The position numbers were made by a program, and so were the translations under genes. The notes under the pieces were generated by a model. That model saw only the letters and a list, made by a program, of their open reading frames with translations. It ran no database searches and was not told the origin of the DNA. From Dehalococcoidia bacterium (GTDB lineage: Bacteria > Chloroflexota > Dehalococcoidia > UBA2979), in contig QZJI01000036.1 in the NCBI GenBank assembly GCA_003599735.1, forward strand, positions 1 to 58,851: a stretch of DNA of 58,851 bases, given 5' to 3'. Below, piece by piece: positions 21,835 to 48,312 of the stretch. Each line of letters begins with the position of its first letter. Position 1 is the first letter of the stretch.

Positions 21835-22530
21835 CTAGACGCGCACACCCACGGATTCGAGGACGGAGCGCCAGATCGCGTTGCCGTCGTCGTGGCCCAG
21901 CAGCGGCTCACAGGATCGCTCGGGGTGAGGCATCATGCCGAGGACGTTGCCCCGCTCGTTCAGGATGCCCGCGATGTTGTTCATCGAGCCGTTCGGGTTC
22001 GCCTCCGGCGTCACGCGGCCGTCGGCGGTGCCGTAGCGGAAGGCGACGCGGTCCGTGTCCTCCAGCATCCGGAGCGTCGGCTCATCGGCGACGTAGCGGC
22101 CTTCGCCGTGCGAGATCGGGAAGAGGTAACCGCGTGAAGCATCGAGGCCGCGCGTGAACGGCGAGGTGGTGTTCACGGGGACGCAGTAAGTGTCCGTGCA
22201 GCGGAACTGCAGCGACTCGTTCCGTACGAGCGCCCCCGGCAGCAGGTGCGCCTCACAGAGGATCTGGAAACCGTTGCAGATGCCGATCACCAGCCCGCCG
22301 GCCTCGGCGTGGCGTTGCACCGACTCCATGATCGGCGCGAACCGCGCGATCGCCCCGGTGCGCAGATAGTCGCCGTAGGAGAAACCACCGGGCAACACGA
22401 CGAGTTCGTCCGGCTCCAGATGCGTCTCACGGTGCCAGACCTTGCGCGACTCGATCCCCACCTGCGAGAGCGCCCACACGCAGTCGTTGTCACTCCATGT
22501 GCCGGGAAAGACGACGACGGCGGCACGCAT
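21835..22530 (-). CDS. purQ: Phosphoribosylformylglycinamidine synthase glutaminase PurQ
   Basis: The class I glutamine amidotransferase that supplies ammonia to PurL. At 231 residues it shows VVVFPGTWSDNDC at the start, LPGGFSYGDYLRTGAIA, the nucleophile elbow GICNGFQIL (Cys) and the catalytic MMPHPERSCEP near the end. It ends 14 bases from the plus-strand membrane gene, which separates it from purL. Confidence 0.96.
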   Translation of the reverse strand: MRAAVVVFPGTWSDNDCVWALSQVGIESRKVWHRETHLEPDELVVLPGGFSYGDYLRTGAIARFAPIMESVQRHAEAGGLVIGICNGFQILCEAHLLPGALVRNESLQFRCTDTYCVPVNTTSPFTRGLDASRGYLFPISHGEGRYVADEPTLRMLEDTDRVAFRYGTADGRVTPEANPNGSMNNIAGILNERGNVLGMMPHPERSCEPLLGHDDGNAIWRSVLESVGVRV

Positions 22531-22590
22531 CGGCGGCTCCTCGGGCGAGACAGTCGAGGGGAGACCGGCCCAGTATACGGAAGGCCGCCG

Positions 22591-24816
22591 TTAGCGCGTG
22601 TCGTCCTCGGAGATCGCGGGGCGCGGCGGGATCGGAAGGTCGGCCACGATGACCTCCTGTGGCGTCTCGGGGCGCTGAGGGGCAGGGAGGGCGGCGCCGC
22701 GGGCGGCCAGTTCACGACGGGTCGGCTCGGGGTACTCGACACGAGGATGGAAGACGGCGTTGAGGGTGGCGGTATAGGTGTCCGCGACGACGCGCAGGTC
22801 GCGCAGCGAGATCGGGCACTCGTCCAGCTGTCCCTCCTCAATACGTTCGCGGATCGTCTGCTCTACGGCCTCGCGGATCCGTTCGGTGGATCGGTCGGGC
22901 ATCGAACGGACGGTCGCCTCGCACGCGTCGGCGATCATGACGAGGGCGGTCTCGCGCGTCTGCGGCTTCGGGCCGGGATAACGGAAGAGGTCGGGCGAGA
23001 CGTCCGGGCGCACCTCAGCGGCGCGCCGGTAGAAGTAGGTGACGAGCCGTGTGCCGTGGTGTTCCGGGATGAACCGCACGACGACTTCGGGGATCTTCTC
23101 CTTGCGCGCGAGTTCGACACCCTGGGTGACGTGCTGCAGGATCACGCGGTTGGACTGCATCGGATCGATGTGCTCGTGCGGACTCGGGTCATCACCGAAG
23201 TTTTCCACGAAGAACGCGGGGGAATACAGCTTGCCGACGTCGTGGTAGTACGCCCCTACGCGGACAAGGAGGGCGTCCGCGCCAATCCGGTCCGCCGCAC
23301 GCTCCGCGAGGTTCCCCACGAGCATCGCGTGCTGGAACGTGCCGGGCGCCTCGTCCTGCAGGCGGCGGAGCAGCGGGTGGCTCAACTGGCCGAGTTCCAT
23401 CAACTGCACGCGCGTGACGATGCCGAACATTTTACCGAGGAGCGCGAGCGCAAGCGCGGCCAGCACGGCTGTCCAGAGGCCACCCACCACGCTGGCCCCA
23501 ACCAGCCAGGGGAGGTCCTCCAGCCGCCGGTCGGGGTCGAGCAGCAGCAACGCACCCGCCGTCACGCCCGATCCCGCCGCCGCCGCGAGCCCCGCAAAGA
23601 CGATGCGCTGACCGCGGTCGCTACGTGTGGCGACGCCGACGGCCGCGAGCGAACCGACCGTCGCCGCTGCCGCGAACTGCGCGACTTCGAGGGCGTTCGC
23701 CTCGCCGAGAGTGGCGCTGGGAGCGGCGACACCAGCGAATGCGGTCAGCGCACCCAGGAGTGCCGCCAGCAGCAGTCCGGCTCCGGCGTCGAGCAGAAGC
23801 GTCGCCGCCACGGGCACAGCGCACAGCGGTAGCGCCAGCACCAGGAAGCGCCGCTGGTCGTCCAGCAGCAGGAACGGCGCGGCGGACTTCGCGGCGAACA
23901 CGGCAACGGCTAACAGCAGGGCAAAGAGCAACCGCCGGCGCGCCCCGGCCAGGCTTGGGACGCCCTCCGCCACGACCGCGCAGGCGGCGCCGGACACCAT
24001 CGCGGCGACGACGGCGGCTGCCACCACCGGCCAGCGCAACGCACCGTCGTTGACCCCCAGCCGGTCGAGCGCCTCGATCGCCGCGGCGTCGACAAGATCC
24101 CCCGTGTCGACGACCGGCTGTCCCCGCGTGAAGGAGACAACGACAGGCGGGGTATTGTCGCGCGCCTGCTTCCGCTGCGCCTCGGTCCGGGCGGCATCCA
24201 CTTTCAGGGTGGTGATGATCAGCGGTGACAGCAGCTCACGCGCAGCAGCCCGCTCCAGCTCCGACAGCGACGGACTGAAGAACCCGGCCGCACGCGTCTT
24301 CGCCTGCTCCACCTCGTGCGCCGCGACAGCGCCGACCAGCGTGCGGCCGAGGACGGCACGGAGTTCAGCCGTCAGCGCCTCCCAGCGCTCGGACGTGAGC
24401 GCGGCCAGCGCCGTCGCGCCTTCCTGCGAGATCGTCGTGCCCGGGATCGCACGGAGCGCGCTCTCCTTCGCGGAGGCGGAGAGCCCGGCGTCGTGTCTCA
24501 CCCGGTCAACCTCGCGCAGCACGCGTTCGAGGTCGGCGAGTTGCCGGTCGCGCACGGTGGTGTCGAGGACCACGACCTCCGGGACAGCGTCGGCCGCCTG
24601 CTTCCGGACGGCACGCGTACGCACCTCGGACTCGTAGGAGAGGTCGCGCGGCGCGGGGAGCGCACGCGCGACGATGGAACCCTCGCGCAGCGGGCGGACG
24701 CCCGGGTAGACGGGGAACAGCGCAGCCGTGAGCAGCAACGTCACCGCGACGCCGAACCACCATGATCGACGGCGCATTGGCCGCGCGGGGACGGGACGGG
24801 GAGCGCGCACGGCCAT
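22591..24816 (-). CDS. 7TM-HD family membrane phosphodiesterase (PgpH-like)
   Basis: A 741-residue membrane protein: an N-terminal transmembrane helix, an extracytoplasmic 7TMR-HDED-like region up to about residue 260, a bundle of hydrophobic helices around 265-480, and a cytoplasmic HD domain with HAMLVGNLAERAADRIG and YYHDVGKLY (the HD metal pair) and HEHIDPMQS. Listeria PgpH, of the same layout, hydrolyses cyclic di-AMP; that activity is a family-based inference here. It starts 21 bases after the yqeY stop. Many neighbours of such genes are ybeY/ybeZ, which are not seen here. Confidence 0.9.
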   Translation of the reverse strand: MAVRAPRPVPARPMRRRSWWFGVAVTLLLTAALFPVYPGVRPLREGSIVARALPAPRDLSYESEVRTRAVRKQAADAVPEVVVLDTTVRDRQLADLERVLREVDRVRHDAGLSASAKESALRAIPGTTISQEGATALAALTSERWEALTAELRAVLGRTLVGAVAAHEVEQAKTRAAGFFSPSLSELERAAARELLSPLIITTLKVDAARTEAQRKQARDNTPPVVVSFTRGQPVVDTGDLVDAAAIEALDRLGVNDGALRWPVVAAAVVAAMVSGAACAVVAEGVPSLAGARRRLLFALLLAVAVFAAKSAAPFLLLDDQRRFLVLALPLCAVPVAATLLLDAGAGLLLAALLGALTAFAGVAAPSATLGEANALEVAQFAAAATVGSLAAVGVATRSDRGQRIVFAGLAAAAGSGVTAGALLLLDPDRRLEDLPWLVGASVVGGLWTAVLAALALALLGKMFGIVTRVQLMELGQLSHPLLRRLQDEAPGTFQHAMLVGNLAERAADRIGADALLVRVGAYYHDVGKLYSPAFFVENFGDDPSPHEHIDPMQSNRVILQHVTQGVELARKEKIPEVVVRFIPEHHGTRLVTYFYRRAAEVRPDVSPDLFRYPGPKPQTRETALVMIADACEATVRSMPDRSTERIREAVEQTIRERIEEGQLDECPISLRDLRVVADTYTATLNAVFHPRVEYPEPTRRELAARGAALPAPQRPETPQEVIVADLPIPPRPAISEDDTR

Positions 24817-24837
24817 CGATGCGCTCCGTGGGCCGCG

Positions 24838-25284
24838 CTAACCCTGGAGGATTTCGCGGGCGACCGCGTTCGCGGCGGCGCCGTCCGCACGGCCCGCGAG
24901 GCGGGCCATCAGGGGACGCATCACTTTACCCAGGTCATTCACACTCGTCGCGCCCGCCTCTTCGATCACGGAGCGGACAATGGCGCGCAATTCTTCGTCG
25001 GACATCTGCTGGGGAAGGAACTCCACGATGACATCGAGCTCAGCCTGCTCTTTGTCGACGAGATCCTGCCGCTTCGCCTTCGCGTATTCCGTGATCGAGT
25101 CGCGGCGCTGCTTCGCTTCCTTCTGCAGGACGCGTGTGACGTCCGGCTCTTCGAGTGGCCGCCTGAGCTCGATGCGGGCGTTCTCCATGCTCGCGATCAT
25201 CAGGCGGAGCGCGTCGCGGCGTGTGGTGTCACCGGCCTTCCAGGCAGCGGTCATTGCCGCGCGGATCGATTCGGTCGTGGCCAT
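24838..25284 (-). CDS. yqeY: GatB/YqeY domain protein
   Basis: A 148-residue protein matching the YqeY family, related to the tail domain of the amidotransferase GatB: SIRAAMTAAWKAGDTTRRDALRLMIASMENARIE, KEAKQRRDSI and VNDLGKVMRPLMARLAGRADG. It is thought to bind tRNA, but its role is unproven. The true start is ATG 25284 with GAGGAGG 5 bases upstream; a longer frame begins 27 codons earlier but has no ribosome site and overlaps the rpsU terminator. yqeY commonly sits next to rpsU, as here. Confidence 0.9.
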   Translation of the reverse strand: MATTESIRAAMTAAWKAGDTTRRDALRLMIASMENARIELRRPLEEPDVTRVLQKEAKQRRDSITEYAKAKRQDLVDKEQAELDVIVEFLPQQMSDEELRAIVRSVIEEAGATSVNDLGKVMRPLMARLAGRADGAAANAVAREILQG

Positions 25285-25330
25285 CGTCCCTCCTCGTGTC
25301 TCGCCGACGTCATGCCGCCGGAGACAACGA

Positions 25331-25349
25331 ACCCCGGCTTTGCCGGGGT
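25331..25349 (-). terminator. Hairpin between rpsU and yqeY
   Basis: ACCCCGGC-TTT-GCCGGGGT is a perfect 8-bp stem with a 3-base loop, 38 bases after the rpsU stop on the minus strand. The following bases (TCGTTGTC) are only partly U-rich, so it may attenuate rather than fully terminate read-through into yqeY. Confidence 0.6.
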
Positions 25350-25386
25350 CCGAGTCTGCGAGCACCCGGCGTCCGCCGGCCTCCGA

Positions 25387-25605
25387 CTAGTAGTCGCGAC
25401 GCGCGCCAGTGCGGGAAGCCGCCTTGCGCAGCTTGCGGCGGCGGGCGGCTTCCTTCTTCTTGCGTCGCTCGGACGGCTTTTCGTAGTACTCGTGGCGGCG
25501 GGCGTCGGTCAGGATGCCGTCCGCCTGAACGCGCTTGTTGAAGCGGCGCAGCGCGGCCTCCAACGATTCCGAGTCGCCTACCGTGATATCCGTCACTCGT
25601 ACCAC
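25387..25605 (-). CDS. rpsU: 30S ribosomal protein bS21
   Basis: bS21 is a small basic protein of the 30S platform near the anti-Shine-Dalgarno end of 16S rRNA. The 72-residue product shows ESLEAALRRFNKRVQADGILTDARRHEYYEKPSERRKKK, the diagnostic core, and a basic tail. The start could be GTG at 25605 or the GTG three codons downstream; either keeps the full core. The gene's presence argues against an actinobacterial host. Confidence 0.95.
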   Translation of the reverse strand: MVRVTDITVGDSESLEAALRRFNKRVQADGILTDARRHEYYEKPSERRKKKEAARRRKLRKAASRTGARRDY

Positions 25606-25775
25606 CCCCGGCCCGGCATCTGGCCGGGCTCCGCATCCGTTGCTCTCAACCTCGGGAGATCCCCGCGGCGCGTCCAGATTCGGCGCGTATTAGCCATCGT
25701 ACGGATGGCGCTCCGACAGCGTCAAACCGGACGTCAGAAAGAGGATAGAAGAGACAAAAAACCCAAAGACGAAGA

Positions 25776-25800
25776 GGACGGCCGCCGGTGGCGACCGTCC
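25776..25800 (-). terminator. Terminator after the two tiny zinc-knuckle-like genes
   Basis: On the minus strand a GC-rich imperfect hairpin (GGACGG..CCGTCC arms with a one-base mismatch, 4-base loop) is followed by TCTTCGTCTTTGGGTTTTTTGTC, a clear T-rich tract. It lies 18 bases after the stop of the 51-codon gene. Confidence 0.8.
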
Positions 25801-25817
25801 AAGATCCCATGCCAGCC

Positions 25818-25973
25818 CTAGTCGGCGGAGGGGAGCACTTTCGGCTGGAGTTCTTCCATACCGCGGCCGTTGACGTTTAGGTTGACGTCGGCCGGCTTGT
25901 CACCGGGCTTGATGCAGAGCACCTCGACCCCGGTGGTCTCGTCCTTGTAGCGCTTGCCGAGTGCGACAGCCAT
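25818..25973 (-). CDS. 51-residue protein, paralogue of the upstream desulforedoxin-like gene
   Basis: A very small protein with GKRYKDETTGVEVLCIKPGD in its first half and LPSAD at the end. It aligns with the neighbouring 39-residue protein along its length (GKRYK, then a turn, then a xG-rich strand), but the CxxC pair of the neighbour is replaced by ETTG here, so it cannot bind metal in the same way. The start at 25973 has TAGGAGG 7 bases upstream, one of the best ribosome sites in the window. The longer frame beginning at 26060 overlaps the upstream gene and is not used. Function unknown. Confidence 0.82.
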   Translation of the reverse strand: MAVALGKRYKDETTGVEVLCIKPGDKPADVNLNVNGRGMEELQPKVLPSAD

Positions 25974-25983
25974 AGCGAACCTC

Positions 25984-26103
25984 CTACAGCTGCTCGAGCG
26001 GCTTCTCGCCGCAGCGCAGTTCCGCGTCGTTGGAACCCTTGGTGACGATGAATTCGGCACCGCAGTCGGGGCACTTGTAGCGCTTCCCGGTCACAGCAGG
26101 CAT
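25984..26103 (-). CDS. 39-residue desulforedoxin-like mini-protein
   Basis: The ATG at 26103 opens a 39-codon gene encoding MPAVTGKRYKCPDCGAEFIV..ELRCGEKPLEQL. C11-x2-C14 and a later RCGE recall the desulforedoxin/rubredoxin-type iron knuckle, though only three cysteines are present where four would be normal, so the metal site would be incomplete within one chain. GAGGGGGG lies 5 bases or so upstream. It is followed 10 bases later by its 51-residue paralogue, and the pair share a terminator. Such proteins are easily missed because of their size. Confidence 0.82.
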   Translation of the reverse strand: MPAVTGKRYKCPDCGAEFIVTKGSNDAELRCGEKPLEQL

Positions 26104-26167
26104 TCGAACCCCCCTCGAACTCTCGCGCCCGGCGAATGTGCTGGCTACGTCGCGCAGGCTATGAGGC

Positions 26168-27082
26168 CTACGGCTCTACGGTCTTGATGAACGTGACGAG
26201 CGCCTTGATGTCGTCGTCCTTCAGGCCGGCTGCGCCCCACGCCGGCATCGCTGTGCCGGGGCGTCCGTTCTTGATCGTGTTGAAGTAGAAGTCGTCCGTA
26301 TTCGTCAGCTTTGCTGGCGTCAGCGCCGGACCCACGATGCCCTGGCGCTTGTTCCCGTGACAGGTCGCGCACGTCTTCTGGTAGAAGTCGCCGACAGCGA
26401 CACCCTGGACCGTCGGGCCGGACGGGGCGCCCTTCGGTGTGGCGGTCGCCTGCGCGCCGGCGCTGTCGGCGCCGAGCGGCTTCAGCGCGTCGCGCTCGTA
26501 GAACTCCTTGGCGGACAGCGGGTTGAACTGTCCACAGTTCTTCGCCGTCAGCGACAGCGCCGCCGGATCCTTCACCAGGATCGCCGCGCGCTCCGCATCC
26601 GTCAGCGGCGCGTCGTGCTCGTGTCCGATCTCAGTGACCAAGTCCCAGCGGCCCTGCGTGATGAGCAGGACGAGGTAGTTGATCTGCGTGTCCGACAGTG
26701 GACCGCCGTGCTTCTCCGACCAGGTCGGCATCGCGGTGTTGGTCCGGCCACAGGCGATGGTATTGAAAAGGAAGCTCTTAAGCGCCGTCGCCTCACCTTC
26801 CGGCGTCTGGACGTACTGTTTGTCACCCTTCTCGACGACGCGGAACGAGGTGCGGTTCAGCGCCGGGGCAATGGCACCTCCCTCGGTGCCCTTGCCCTCC
26901 ATGCCGTGGCAGGTGCGACAGTTGTTCACGTAGAGCGTCGCCCCGCGGTGCGCCTTCAGATCTTCCTGGGCCTCGCGCGCGGCCTCGGCGCGGTTGTTCT
27001 CGTTGGCGATGTAAGCGCCAAACGCGAGGAAGGCGACGAACAGCAGCCCGATCATCACATTGACCTGCTTGCTTGTGTTCAT
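26168..27082 (-). CDS. Membrane-anchored dihaem cytochrome c
   Basis: A 304-residue protein with one N-terminal membrane anchor (about residues 8-25) and two class I c-type domains outside the membrane. The first haem site is C55-R-T-C58-H59, the second C238-A-T-C241-H242; each is followed by a TAMP(T/A)W segment whose Met can be the sixth ligand. It is the last gene of the b6-type bc operon and probably takes the place of cytochrome f or c1, receiving electrons from the Rieske centre and passing them to a terminal oxidase. Confidence 0.93.
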   Translation of the reverse strand: MNTSKQVNVMIGLLFVAFLAFGAYIANENNRAEAAREAQEDLKAHRGATLYVNNCRTCHGMEGKGTEGGAIAPALNRTSFRVVEKGDKQYVQTPEGEATALKSFLFNTIACGRTNTAMPTWSEKHGGPLSDTQINYLVLLITQGRWDLVTEIGHEHDAPLTDAERAAILVKDPAALSLTAKNCGQFNPLSAKEFYERDALKPLGADSAGAQATATPKGAPSGPTVQGVAVGDFYQKTCATCHGNKRQGIVGPALTPAKLTNTDDFYFNTIKNGRPGTAMPAWGAAGLKDDDIKALVTFIKTVEP

Positions 27083-27138
27083 GCGTTCACCATTCCGTCG
27101 CGCGTCTCGACCTGCTCAGCCGCGTGTCAATCGCCAGG

Positions 27139-27792
27139 CTATGCCGGCAATCCGGGCGCCTTGACGGCGCGAGTCGGGTTGTCCGGTCCACCCGGTGTGA
27201 TCTTGCCGGTGTCCACGGTGATGTTGCCGGAGCCGTCCACCGTGATCGCCATCGTGTCCATCGAGCGCGGGGCGGGCCCGAAGACCCGGATACCCGACTT
27301 CGTGTACGTGGAGCCGTGACACGGGCAGCGGTACCAACCCTTATCGCCCTCGTAGTCGAAGCTCTGGCGCCACGGCACCGTGCAGCCGAGATGGGGACAT
27401 TTCCGCCAGAGCGCCAACAGCCCGGCCGCGCCACCAGCCCCCCCGGGCCGAGTCTCCGCAGGGTCAAGGTTGGCGATCCAGAACTGACCCTCCGAGAATG
27501 CCTTCGGCTCGCCGCCCTTGGGATAGTCCTTCACGTTACCCGCCGGGACCGGGGCGCCAAAGCCCTTCACATTCCGCGGGTAGAGAAAGTCCAGCAGCAA
27601 CCCGACCGAGCCGAGCAACGTCACACCAAGGCCACCCCAGAAGGAGGCCCGGATGAAATTCCGGCGCGACACGTCGTGATCGAGTGGCGTCACCGCCGCC
27701 GCTGGGATGGACTCCGCATCCGCCACCTGCGTCTTACGCGTGGCCAGCGCCTGCTTCCAGGCGTCTGTGGGCGAGACCGTCTCGTTCGCCAT
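27139..27792 (-). CDS. Rieske iron-sulfur subunit, Tat-type signal
   Basis: A 217-residue Rieske protein. The cluster boxes are C132-P-H134-L-G-C137 and C156-P-C158-H159, with ligands C132, H134, C156 and H159, and C137-C158 as the usual disulfide. A twin-arginine motif SRRNFI (41-47) precedes the single anchor helix, as expected since Rieske proteins fold before Tat export. It accepts electrons from quinol and passes them to cytochrome c. A tatA gene occurs elsewhere in the window. Confidence 0.95.
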   Translation of the reverse strand: MANETVSPTDAWKQALATRKTQVADAESIPAAAVTPLDHDVSRRNFIRASFWGGLGVTLLGSVGLLLDFLYPRNVKGFGAPVPAGNVKDYPKGGEPKAFSEGQFWIANLDPAETRPGGAGGAAGLLALWRKCPHLGCTVPWRQSFDYEGDKGWYRCPCHGSTYTKSGIRVFGPAPRSMDTMAITVDGSGNITVDTGKITPGGPDNPTRAVKAPGLPA

Positions 27793-27822
27793 CGATGTGC
27801 CCTCTCAGCCGGCCCCGCGGGC

Positions 27823-28689
27823 CTAGTGGTCTCCCGCGAAGATGGTGTACGGCACGAGCGCCAGACCCTCGCCGCGCATGTACGTGCCGATGATCGTCAG
27901 CGTTACGTATACGGCGATGAAGCCAGAGAACTGCAGGATCATGTGGTCGCGCTTCGTCTGCGCGATCTTCGCCTTCCATGCCACGATCGACAGTAGGATC
28001 GGCAGGCCGACCATCGTGCTTATCGGGATGATCTGCTCGACGATCAGGCCCGGTATGTTGACGTTCAGGCTGATCTTCGGCAGGCCCAAGAGATCCGTTC
28101 GAAGCAGCTTGTCGCCCAAGGGAACCTTCAGCCACGACTCCGGCCATGGGATCTCGTTCTGGATCGCCCGCAGGTTCCGCAGCGCGGGGATGGGCCAGTC
28201 CGTCCCGGTCAGCTTCTCCCACATCTTCGCGTGCTGCGCGTCGTCGAACAGGATGAGCAGCAGCGTCCCAACCGAACCGACGCCCGCACCCACGTAGGTG
28301 TTGAGCCACGCGCGCGGGGTGGAGAGCCATTCGCCCTGACCCTCGGCGGTGTTGTCCCAGTACGGGATAGCGCCGAGCGCGATGAGCGCGACCGTCGGCA
28401 CGATGACGCCCGCGAGCGCCGGGTGCATGTGGAGCAGGAGCTCCTGCAGGTTCAGGAAGTACCACGGCGCCTTGGACGGGTTCGGGGTCACGGCCGGGTT
28501 CGCCCGGTCAAGCAGGATCGCGTCCACCAGCACGGCGAGCGCCACGATCAGGACCGTGAACAGCACCGCCGAGATGAACTCGATGAAGACCAGATCCGGC
28601 CAGACGAGGAGCTCTTCCTCGCGCTGACGTCGCTTGCGCGCCTCGACGGCACGCGAGGCGGCGACGGGCTGGGTGTTTGCAGCGGCCAT
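27823..28689 (-). CDS. Cytochrome b C-terminal (subunit IV-like) protein
   Basis: A 288-residue membrane protein matching cytochrome b6f subunit IV, the C-terminal part of cytochrome b that forms the quinol site. PNPSKAPWYFLNLQELL is the typical beginning of that part (with the PWYF in place of PEWY further along the family alignment). It is much longer than the roughly 160-residue plant/cyanobacterial subunit IV: an N-terminal basic region and a soluble stretch near residues 140-210 are extra. It sits between cytochrome b and the Rieske gene. Confidence 0.92.
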   Translation of the reverse strand: MAAANTQPVAASRAVEARKRRQREEELLVWPDLVFIEFISAVLFTVLIVALAVLVDAILLDRANPAVTPNPSKAPWYFLNLQELLLHMHPALAGVIVPTVALIALGAIPYWDNTAEGQGEWLSTPRAWLNTYVGAGVGSVGTLLLILFDDAQHAKMWEKLTGTDWPIPALRNLRAIQNEIPWPESWLKVPLGDKLLRTDLLGLPKISLNVNIPGLIVEQIIPISTMVGLPILLSIVAWKAKIAQTKRDHMILQFSGFIAVYVTLTIIGTYMRGEGLALVPYTIFAGDH

Positions 28690-28707
28690 CGTGCGTTCCT
28701 CCCCCGA

Positions 28708-29463
28708 CTACAGCGGCCGAGCCAGGCCGCCGTCGCGGCGGATCCGCCAGAAGTGGACCGTCATGAACACGGCCGCCATCAGCGGAAGGCCGATCACATG
28801 CAGCGTATAGAACCGGATGAGCGCGGATTGGCCCACCTGGAACCCACCCACCAGGACGAACCGGTTCGGCTCCCCCAGCAGCGGCGCGGAACCCACCATG
28901 TTCGTACCGACCGTGATGGCCCACAGCGCGAGCTGGTCCCACGGCAGCAGGTAGCCGGTGAACGAGAGCAAGAGCGTCAGGACGAGCAGCACTACGCCGA
29001 CGACCCAGTTGAACTCCCGGGGCGGCTTGTACGCACCAGTGTAGAAGACGCGCATCATGTGCATGAGCACCGTCAGGACCATGCCGTGCGCCATCCACCG
29101 ATGCATGTTGCGCATCAACTGGCCGAAGCGGACGTCCGTCTCCAGCGCCAGGATGTCTTCATACGCCCGCTCCACGGAGGGCACGTAATAGAACATCAGC
29201 AGCACGCCAGAGATGGTCAGGCCGAGGAAGAGGAAGAACGACAACCCGCCCAGACAGAACGTGTGCGTGATCTTGACGTGCGTCCGGTGGATACGCGTCG
29301 GGTGTAGGTGCAGGAAGACGTTGGTGGCAACCGCGAGCATCTGGTTGCGGGGGGTGTTCGGGTACCCGGAACGGAAGATCGAGCGCCAGAGGCGATTCGT
29401 GAAGATCGCGTCATAGACTCGGTCGCCCATCGACCGGCGTTCCGGAGATTCCGTCGCCGTCAT
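28708..29463 (-). CDS. b6-type cytochrome b, N-terminal half
   Basis: The dihaem quinol-oxidising subunit, 251 residues, with four membrane helices. Two haem ligand pairs are visible: His in MHRWMAHGMVLTVLMH (14 apart) and His in LHVIGLPLMAAVFMTVH (15 apart); the latter spacing is that of b6 rather than mitochondrial cytochrome b. FYYVPSVERAY resembles the b6 loop. Subunit IV follows 18 bases after. The complex moves electrons from menaquinol or similar to cytochrome c while pumping protons. Confidence 0.94.
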   Translation of the reverse strand: MTATESPERRSMGDRVYDAIFTNRLWRSIFRSGYPNTPRNQMLAVATNVFLHLHPTRIHRTHVKITHTFCLGGLSFFLFLGLTISGVLLMFYYVPSVERAYEDILALETDVRFGQLMRNMHRWMAHGMVLTVLMHMMRVFYTGAYKPPREFNWVVGVVLLVLTLLLSFTGYLLPWDQLALWAITVGTNMVGSAPLLGEPNRFVLVGGFQVGQSALIRFYTLHVIGLPLMAAVFMTVHFWRIRRDGGLARPL

Positions 29464-44842: not shown

Positions 44843-45166
44843 TGCCTCGCCTCCCTTCACCTCTCCGGCGCCGCCGATGCGGCAGCGAGACGTCACGCGG
44901 ACGCCCTGTGGAAACAGGAGGCGAAAGGCAACTGCCTTGGCCTCCGAACGCCTACGGGGTGAGCTGACGGGTTCGGCGTCGGAAGTCGCCTACGCGCCGA
45001 GGCGCGATTCACCCCAGAAGGTGGTTCCCCCGCTCCCGATGCAGATCGGGATTCGGCCCCAGAACCGTACCAGCCGCTAAGCCATGCGCGTCAACCCGCG
45101 AATCTGACGAGCGGTCTTGTCCGCTTTGGATCCGAGCGTGGCCTTGACGAGCAGGGGGTTGTATGT
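44843..45166. other. Divergent intergenic region
   Basis: About 324 bases between the minus-strand glycosyltransferase and the plus-strand DinB gene. I see no gene. A 7-bp hairpin (TCCCGAT-GCAG-ATCGGGA, 45034-45051) lies inside. Both promoters probably lie here, but I cannot assign boxes. The short frames crossing it have no recognisable product. Confidence 0.55.
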
Positions 45167-48117: not shown

Positions 48118-48191
48118 AGCGCATCACCATGCGGCCCAGGGAGGGTCGTGCCAGCGAGGGAGTCGAGTGTGTCATAGCTCCGGCGCCTTCC

Positions 48192-48312
48192 GTTCATCTT
48201 CCCGGAGGCCGTGTGCCGTCCGGGCCGGAATTCGCACCGTGTCCACCCGGGCGAGGGGGGTCGGTTGCGGCGGGTTCGCAGGGCCGGTGCCCTCCCCCGC
48301 TCTGGATGAACC
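48192..48312 (-). promoter_or_regulatory. SAM-I-type (S-box) riboswitch in the leader of the ThrC-like gene
   Basis: Read on the minus strand, the leader holds the S-box core. P1 is GTTCATC (48305-48311) pairing perfectly with GATGAAC (48192-48198). Between them are AGGGCACCGGCCC (48281-48293), GCAACC (48263-48268) and GGTGCGAATTCC (48227-48238), in the order and spacing of the consensus AGGGACYGGCCC .. GCAACC .. GGTGCYAATTCC .. GAWGATGAG. SAM-I riboswitches reduce expression of methionine and cysteine genes when S-adenosylmethionine is plentiful. The aptamer is well supported; one extra base in the AGGG-CA-CCGGCCC part and the GC-rich P3 differ from the standard, so a SAM-IV variant is possible. 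Confidence 0.85.

Follow-up and report, generated by a model that had tools for sequence, protein, structure and literature searches.

Why would a genome keep, side by side, two very small related genes of which one encodes most of a metal site and the other none of it? The window, that is, the whole 58,851-nucleotide stretch of DNA that was analysed, carries such a pair on its minus strand. Gene A (25984..26103, minus strand, ATG start; MPAVTGKRYKCPDC...) encodes a 39-residue desulforedoxin-like protein with a CxxC motif and one further cysteine (residues 11, 14, and 31, which are three of the four ligands). Gene B (25818..25973, minus strand; MAVALGKRYKDETTG...) encodes its 51-residue paralogue, in which the ligand positions are occupied by D, T, V, and N and none of the four ligands is present, with LGKRY and a C-terminal PSAD kept. 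An earlier reading of the DNA from its letters alone had placed both genes correctly, with the right strand and lengths (39 and 51 codons), had counted only three cysteines in A, and had seen a ribosome site for each: a purine-rich, Shine-Dalgarno-like GAGGGGGG stands 5 nt before A (26109..26116, minus strand), and a ribosome-binding-like AGGAGG stands 6 nt before B, where it overlaps the stop codon of A (25980..25985, minus strand). The intergenic gap is 10 nt in the window, A lies upstream of B by 9-41 nt across 35 family loci (window included), and translation of the two is likely to be coupled, judging by the sequence. A shared terminator had also been proposed, and this holds in part: an 11-bp stem with a 3-nt loop follows B as a candidate terminator (25776..25800, minus strand), however, its T-rich tail is interrupted, and three such sites were found in the 2 kb scanned vs 1.4 expected by chance. 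Searches of the window's genome for second copies of A and B returned matches at chance level only (E 0.14 and 0.53). The answer that we develop here, and to which we give an even chance, is that A and B form a heterodimer module for which metal is dispensable and which, as a small accessory protein without a redox role, most likely assists a stand-alone acyl-CoA ligase of the ANL superfamily.

The paralogy of the two genes, claimed in the sequence-only reading, is borne out both by blastp (E=1e-4, 13/42 identical) and by profile-profile comparison (hhalign probability 99.5%, E=1.9e-22, 39 columns). CPDC of A aligns with DETT of B, one position off the ETTG that had been proposed as its replacement; the vicinal cysteines of desulforedoxin correspond to V and N in B, and A retains one of them. 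The AlphaFold model of B (pLDDT 84.8), a metal-free prediction whose underlying alignment includes intact relatives, matches desulforedoxin best (1dxg_A; Z 5.1, rmsd 1.1, 36/36 residues), with a less certain tail (block means 83 and 59), and a desulforedoxin fold is predicted for B. Against Desulfoferrod_N (PF06397), A scores 13.6 bits, below the Pfam gathering score of 23 bits, and B matched no Pfam family at E<=10. Many A and B relatives match the desulforedoxin/desulfoferrodoxin family, with PF06397 matched by 35/51 A rows and 17/46 B rows (E<=0.01), and on the evidence of sequence comparison A and B share descent with members of PF06397; of the four cysteines in the CxxC...CC pattern of that family, B has none and A has three. 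A zinc-finger or zinc-ribbon identity for A was considered and set aside, since its Pfam and NCBIfam matches all fall short of the curated cut-offs and are due mostly to the CxxC knuckle (19.3 bits for the FmdB-type zinc ribbon PF09723, gathering score 34.4 bits). Comparison of B by sequence with solved structures gave a single match at chance level (E 1.2).

Desulforedoxin of Desulfovibrio gigas (PDB 1dxg) and the N-terminal domain of desulfoferrodoxin (PF06397, TIGR00319) have the same predicted fold, size, and knuckle position as these proteins. Unlike desulforedoxin, however, A has only three of the four ligands and B none, a conserved extra tail closes B with PS[AS]D, and the A-B module is made of two different chains, paired or fused. 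The iron-free N-terminal domain of class III superoxide reductase derives from a desulforedoxin domain. For the Treponema pallidum enzyme, the accessible part of one report describes an extended N-terminal domain without iron, of unknown function (PMC3116461). This iron-free domain is the point of likeness to B, but in the enzyme it lies within the superoxide reductase chain, whereas B is a free chain of 51 residues whose paired paralogue keeps a metal site; no superoxide reductase domain follows B, which is a stand-alone open reading frame.

The sequence-only reading had proposed a duplication followed by loss of the metal site, and this order of events is supported. A tandem pair in which each protein has CxxC...CC is found in most other families of the class that were read. 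The duplication therefore predates the metal loss; B lost its site afterwards, and did so repeatedly, in several lineages. B has indeed lost all four ligands, however, loss is not confined to it, as A has lost one; in the window's family A has CxxC and one further cysteine, with histidine instead in some members. Among 127 unique B sequences, a set that is enriched in metal-free forms (the genome scan used patterns taken from them and kept 80 of 141) and leaves out most fusions, 53 keep all four cysteines, the last alone is missing from 7, and 67 are without CxxC. Of these 67, 64 have no ligand at all, and all 67 have [DE] and [ST] at the two knuckle positions. The knuckle was replaced differently in other lineages, for example by S..G (fusions) and by A..S or S..A (family f30), and one genome (G167) has an intermediate state, a metal-free B with a four-cysteine A.

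The window's B carries a 4-residue insertion (KPAD). Among the loci read, this insertion (KPAD-type) in B occurs only in genera g1 and g2 (L003, L005-L010), where it replaces a cysteine found at that place in nearly all other metal-free B proteins read. We considered whether a new cysteine in metal-free B (KPG-x-Cys) supplies the ligand lost from A. A wholly metal-free B with the new cysteine goes together with an A that has CxxC plus one Cys or His in 59/124 unique A+B combinations, and the sole metal-free B whose A keeps CC is without it. Such compensation is not claimed, because six combinations from the window's genus and its sister genus join a three-cysteine A to a B that lacks the new cysteine.

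The recurrence of the loss was followed on an rpoB tree of 28 of the 30 genomes (G236 gave no match and a fragment from G542 was left out). By parsimony, the knuckle state of B changes eight times on this tree, five of these changes being forced by well-supported branches, and the fusion state of A and B changes seven times, six of them forced in the same way. Families f1, f20, and f33 are separated on the tree, but their grouping in one clade is not rejected (AU p 0.108), so five is a safer count than eight for the knuckle, and these three families may share one metal loss. Both kinds of change can be seen within single families: f16 has an intact, separate pair in G050 and fused, metal-free forms in G084 and G203, and f14 has a separate pair with CxxC in G249 and a fusion without CxxC in G311. 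Horizontal transfer of so small a module may also have taken place.

In several lineages A and B occur as a single open frame of about 83-104 aa; 19 distinct fusion sequences were aligned, and one more contains an ambiguous letter. Both knuckles are gone in the f16, f36, and f69 fusions, several fusions are without any ligand in either half, and a fusion from outside the class (G433) has a metal-free A half and an intact B half. The AlphaFold model of an f33 fusion, built from 19 sequences, reaches pLDDT 92.5 and pTM 0.81, and its B half superimposes on 1dxg_A with an rmsd of 0.8 over 36 residues. Foldseek with the whole model returned no convincing match, its top rows being unrelated proteins with E of 1 or more, and five fusions matched no Pfam or NCBIfam family at E<=0.01. 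Since A and B are fused in several lineages, the separate proteins most likely form an A-B heterodimer, and the natural fusions, in which both halves are often free of metal, suggest a single heterodimer with a dispensable metal.

The recurrent loss of ligands from a fold that is kept could also reflect a metal-economy switch, in which A and B would be metal-plus and metal-free versions of one protein and the loss would save zinc or iron. The C+ and C- ribosomal protein paralogues offer a precedent, zinc-independent forms being known according to the portion of the source available (PMC5912738). However, A and B are encoded together and not alternatively, intact pairs have a metal site in both proteins, and the fusions join both in one chain, so the two look like partners and not substitutes, and we regard such a switch as unlikely.

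In the window, the pair sits between cytochrome bc genes and S21/YqeY, with no adjacent ligase. The order on the minus strand (21835-29463) is cytochrome b, subunit IV, Rieske, cytochrome c, A, B, S21, YqeY, an HD-domain protein, and a PurQ-like gene, the names S21, YqeY, HD protein, and PurQ having been assigned by eye. Loci of f1, f20, and f33 whose flanks are long enough mostly retain this order, although the functions look unrelated. Such surroundings could mean that the module carries electrons for the cytochrome bc complex or helps to assemble it, with the three-cysteine A passing electrons or iron and B as its apo partner. Nearly every f1, f20, or f33 locus with sufficient flank has the cytochrome b, subunit IV, Rieske, and cytochrome c genes upstream on the same strand, and the same bc genes are upstream in the intact relatives G050 and G056. 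However, 11 intact-pair loci have other neighbours, such as MnmG-like or CoA-transferase-like genes (assigned by eye), and an acyl-CoA ligase takes that place in other phyla. Furthermore, several fusions are free of ligands in both halves, so redox chemistry or iron transfer is not a function common to all. A role in the bc complex is improbable in our judgement, and the A-B pair probably acts as a helper and does not carry electrons.

The role of the two genes, which the sequence-only reading had called unknown, is narrowed on two sides, by the A-B fusions, which point to a heterodimer, and by a ligase gene that adjoins the module outside the window's class. A tblastn search of plasmids (threshold E<=1) found a B-like sequence in 18 records from Rhodococcus, Streptomyces, Mycobacterium, Sphingomonas, and Sphingobium, of which 14 were opened; the matches in Sphingomonas and Sphingobium and one of those in Streptomyces are weak alone (E 0.07-0.8) and count only because size, tail, and neighbour agree. 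At each of the 13 annotated loci the B-like part forms the C-terminal half of what is annotated as a “hypothetical protein” (about 97-103 aa), and in 12 of these 13 a gene for an acyl-CoA ligase, AMP-binding or class I adenylate-forming enzyme adjoins the fusion, on the same strand and with gaps of 2-59 nt. The exception, in R. gordoniae, has FAD-dependent oxidoreductase genes in place of the ligase, and the 14th opened locus, unannotated and from R. opacus, has a ligase alongside by profile search, which brings the total to 13/14. OB-fold genes are present in the same plasmid clusters as the fusions. The two ligases tested are AMP-binding enzymes (PF00501), and one ligase, a partial frame, scored below the cut-off of the best 25 of 107 NCBIfam models.

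The ligase profile was built from 12 of the plasmid ligases and is independent only for its other matches, among which a ligase adjoins the pair in 5/6 Chloroflexota genomes outside the class. In one genome within the class (G041), a ligase lies clearly beside the pair in 5/8 loci read and weakly in a sixth, and in G385 ligase and B lie together too. G041 is a Dehalococcoidia genome of 5.6 Mb with many matches to A and B, and the ligase profile matches it 34 times. Among the Dehalococcoidia loci searched with the profile (flanks to about 4 kb), G041 is the only genome with a ligase near the pair. The window's genome has one ligase (585.8 bits), which lies away from the pair and adjoins genes for enoyl-CoA hydratases, a cysteine-rich iron-sulfur protein, and ETF. 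Across 393 genomes of the class (cut-offs E<=1e-12 for B and E<=1e-150 for the ligase), 198 have B and a ligase, 55 B only, 24 a ligase only, and 116 neither, giving an odds ratio of 17 that is not corrected for kinship. B is thus present in 198/222 ligase-bearing genomes. A ligase at E<=1e-150 is absent from 55/253 B-bearing genomes, G046, G052, and G053 included, a count in which some ligases may be missed, as a rule no more than the three best first-look candidates per genome having been scored. Among 23 fully scored B-bearing genomes, 20 have a ligase of at least 558 bits; G046, G053, and G052, also fully scored and 95-99% complete, gave 315 bits, 205 bits, and no match at E<=1e-60, respectively. 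Six genomes without B had no ligase above 233 bits.

A and B are real genes, as the sequence-only reading had held, and they are under purifying selection. When the window's genome and 59 relatives were searched, the two were found to co-occur, a check that reading had called for, in 34/35 other family genomes, and the sole family genome without the pair is 75% complete; in a wider draw from the class, B was found in 42/44 family genomes, a count that takes in the window's. Copies of B within the genus are 98-100% identical and differ, pair by pair, at 0-2 nonsynonymous vs 9-16 synonymous codons (5 genomes, 10 pairs). Across the family the median dN/dS is 0.13 for B and 0.22 for A (27 of 28 family loci without the insertion; computable for 202/351 pairs of B and 121/211 pairs of A). 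PS[AS]D is the C-terminal end in 127/127 unique B sequences, whether a metal site is present or not, and because this tail is invariant with or without the ligands, it is the tail, LGKR, and K.G that selection keeps, and not the metal. That B is a gene being lost by neutral decay, as the absence of ligands from B and partly from A might suggest, is contradicted by the codon comparison, by its near-identity within the genus despite many silent changes, by its retention across the family, and by the invariant tail, and we give this idea almost no credence.

In the reading that we prefer, A and B would be the two halves of one small desulforedoxin-fold module. Each half of the intact ancestors would have held a metal, most likely as a structural brace; in the window's lineage the knuckle of B would have become a [DE]xx[ST] turn, with A keeping a three-ligand site. 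Going by the natural fusions, the two chains would pair as an A-B heterodimer that needs no redox chemistry and whose working surface would be the conserved LGKR, K.G, and the C-terminal PS[AS]D tail. The module would aid the folding, stability, or activity of an ANL-superfamily ligase, as MbtH proteins do for adenylation domains, and the window pair would serve a ligase encoded elsewhere in the window's genome. Four elements here, namely the heterodimer, the structural metal, the binding to a ligase, and the service of the window pair to a distant ligase, are ones that we infer. More tentatively, the module may represent a new family of acyl-CoA-ligase adaptors, in which a metal-braced heterodimer repeatedly turned into a fused, metal-free chain, with the invariant PS[AS]D tail serving to bind an ANL ligase or to bring it to maturity, and which would extend over at least Chloroflexota, Actinomycetota, and Alphaproteobacteria.

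MbtH-like proteins are tiny and are encoded near an adenylate-forming enzyme. The A-B module is likewise tiny, and such an enzyme is encoded beside it in 13/14 opened plasmid loci and 5/6 Chloroflexota genomes outside the class, but not in the window. This is analogy only; the fold of the module is desulforedoxin-like and its partners would be acyl-CoA ligases, not peptide synthetase domains. The MbtH Pfam family was matched neither by B (E<=10) nor by three plasmid fusions (E<=0.01). One MbtH-like protein may act as a folding chaperone, as far as the accessible text of the source goes (PMC7593251). DUF35 zinc-ribbon/OB-fold proteins pair with thiolase-like acyl-CoA enzymes, according to the available parts of two reports (PMC2954200; PMC11321319). 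They too offer an analogy only, that of a small zinc-ribbon partner of acyl-CoA enzymes, and differ from A-B in fold and in enzyme partner. The likeness to MbtH and DUF35 proteins would be one of working principle, and no membership is claimed. Literature on desulforedoxin, desulfoferrodoxin, and pairs of MbtH-like proteins and ligases, in a search with most subscription journals outside its scope, describes no A-B module.

Taken as a natural series from metal site to metal-free protein, the intact forms, those with one ligand lost, those with [DE]xx[ST] or S-x-D-G turns, and the fused metal-free double domains make the value of a structural metal open to study. If the link to the ligase is true, hypothetical proteins of Actinomycetota and Alphaproteobacteria whose genes adjoin those of acyl-CoA ligases would gain a function, and the module would add another kind of small accessory protein for adenylate-forming enzymes.

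Some minor observations concern the surrounding DNA and the genome records. Elsewhere in the window, on the minus strand, are a c-di-AMP riboswitch (44934-45068; RF00379, 86.6 bits) and a SAM riboswitch (48191-48312; RF00162, 64.9 bits). A second contig of genome G033 carries a second pair (L076), with intact cysteines, in the window's family, which is either real or contamination. Finally, public MAG records labelled Dehalococcoides mccartyi or Thermoflexus hugenholtzii (L096, L110, L111, L130) carry the family's locus, and their labels look wrong.
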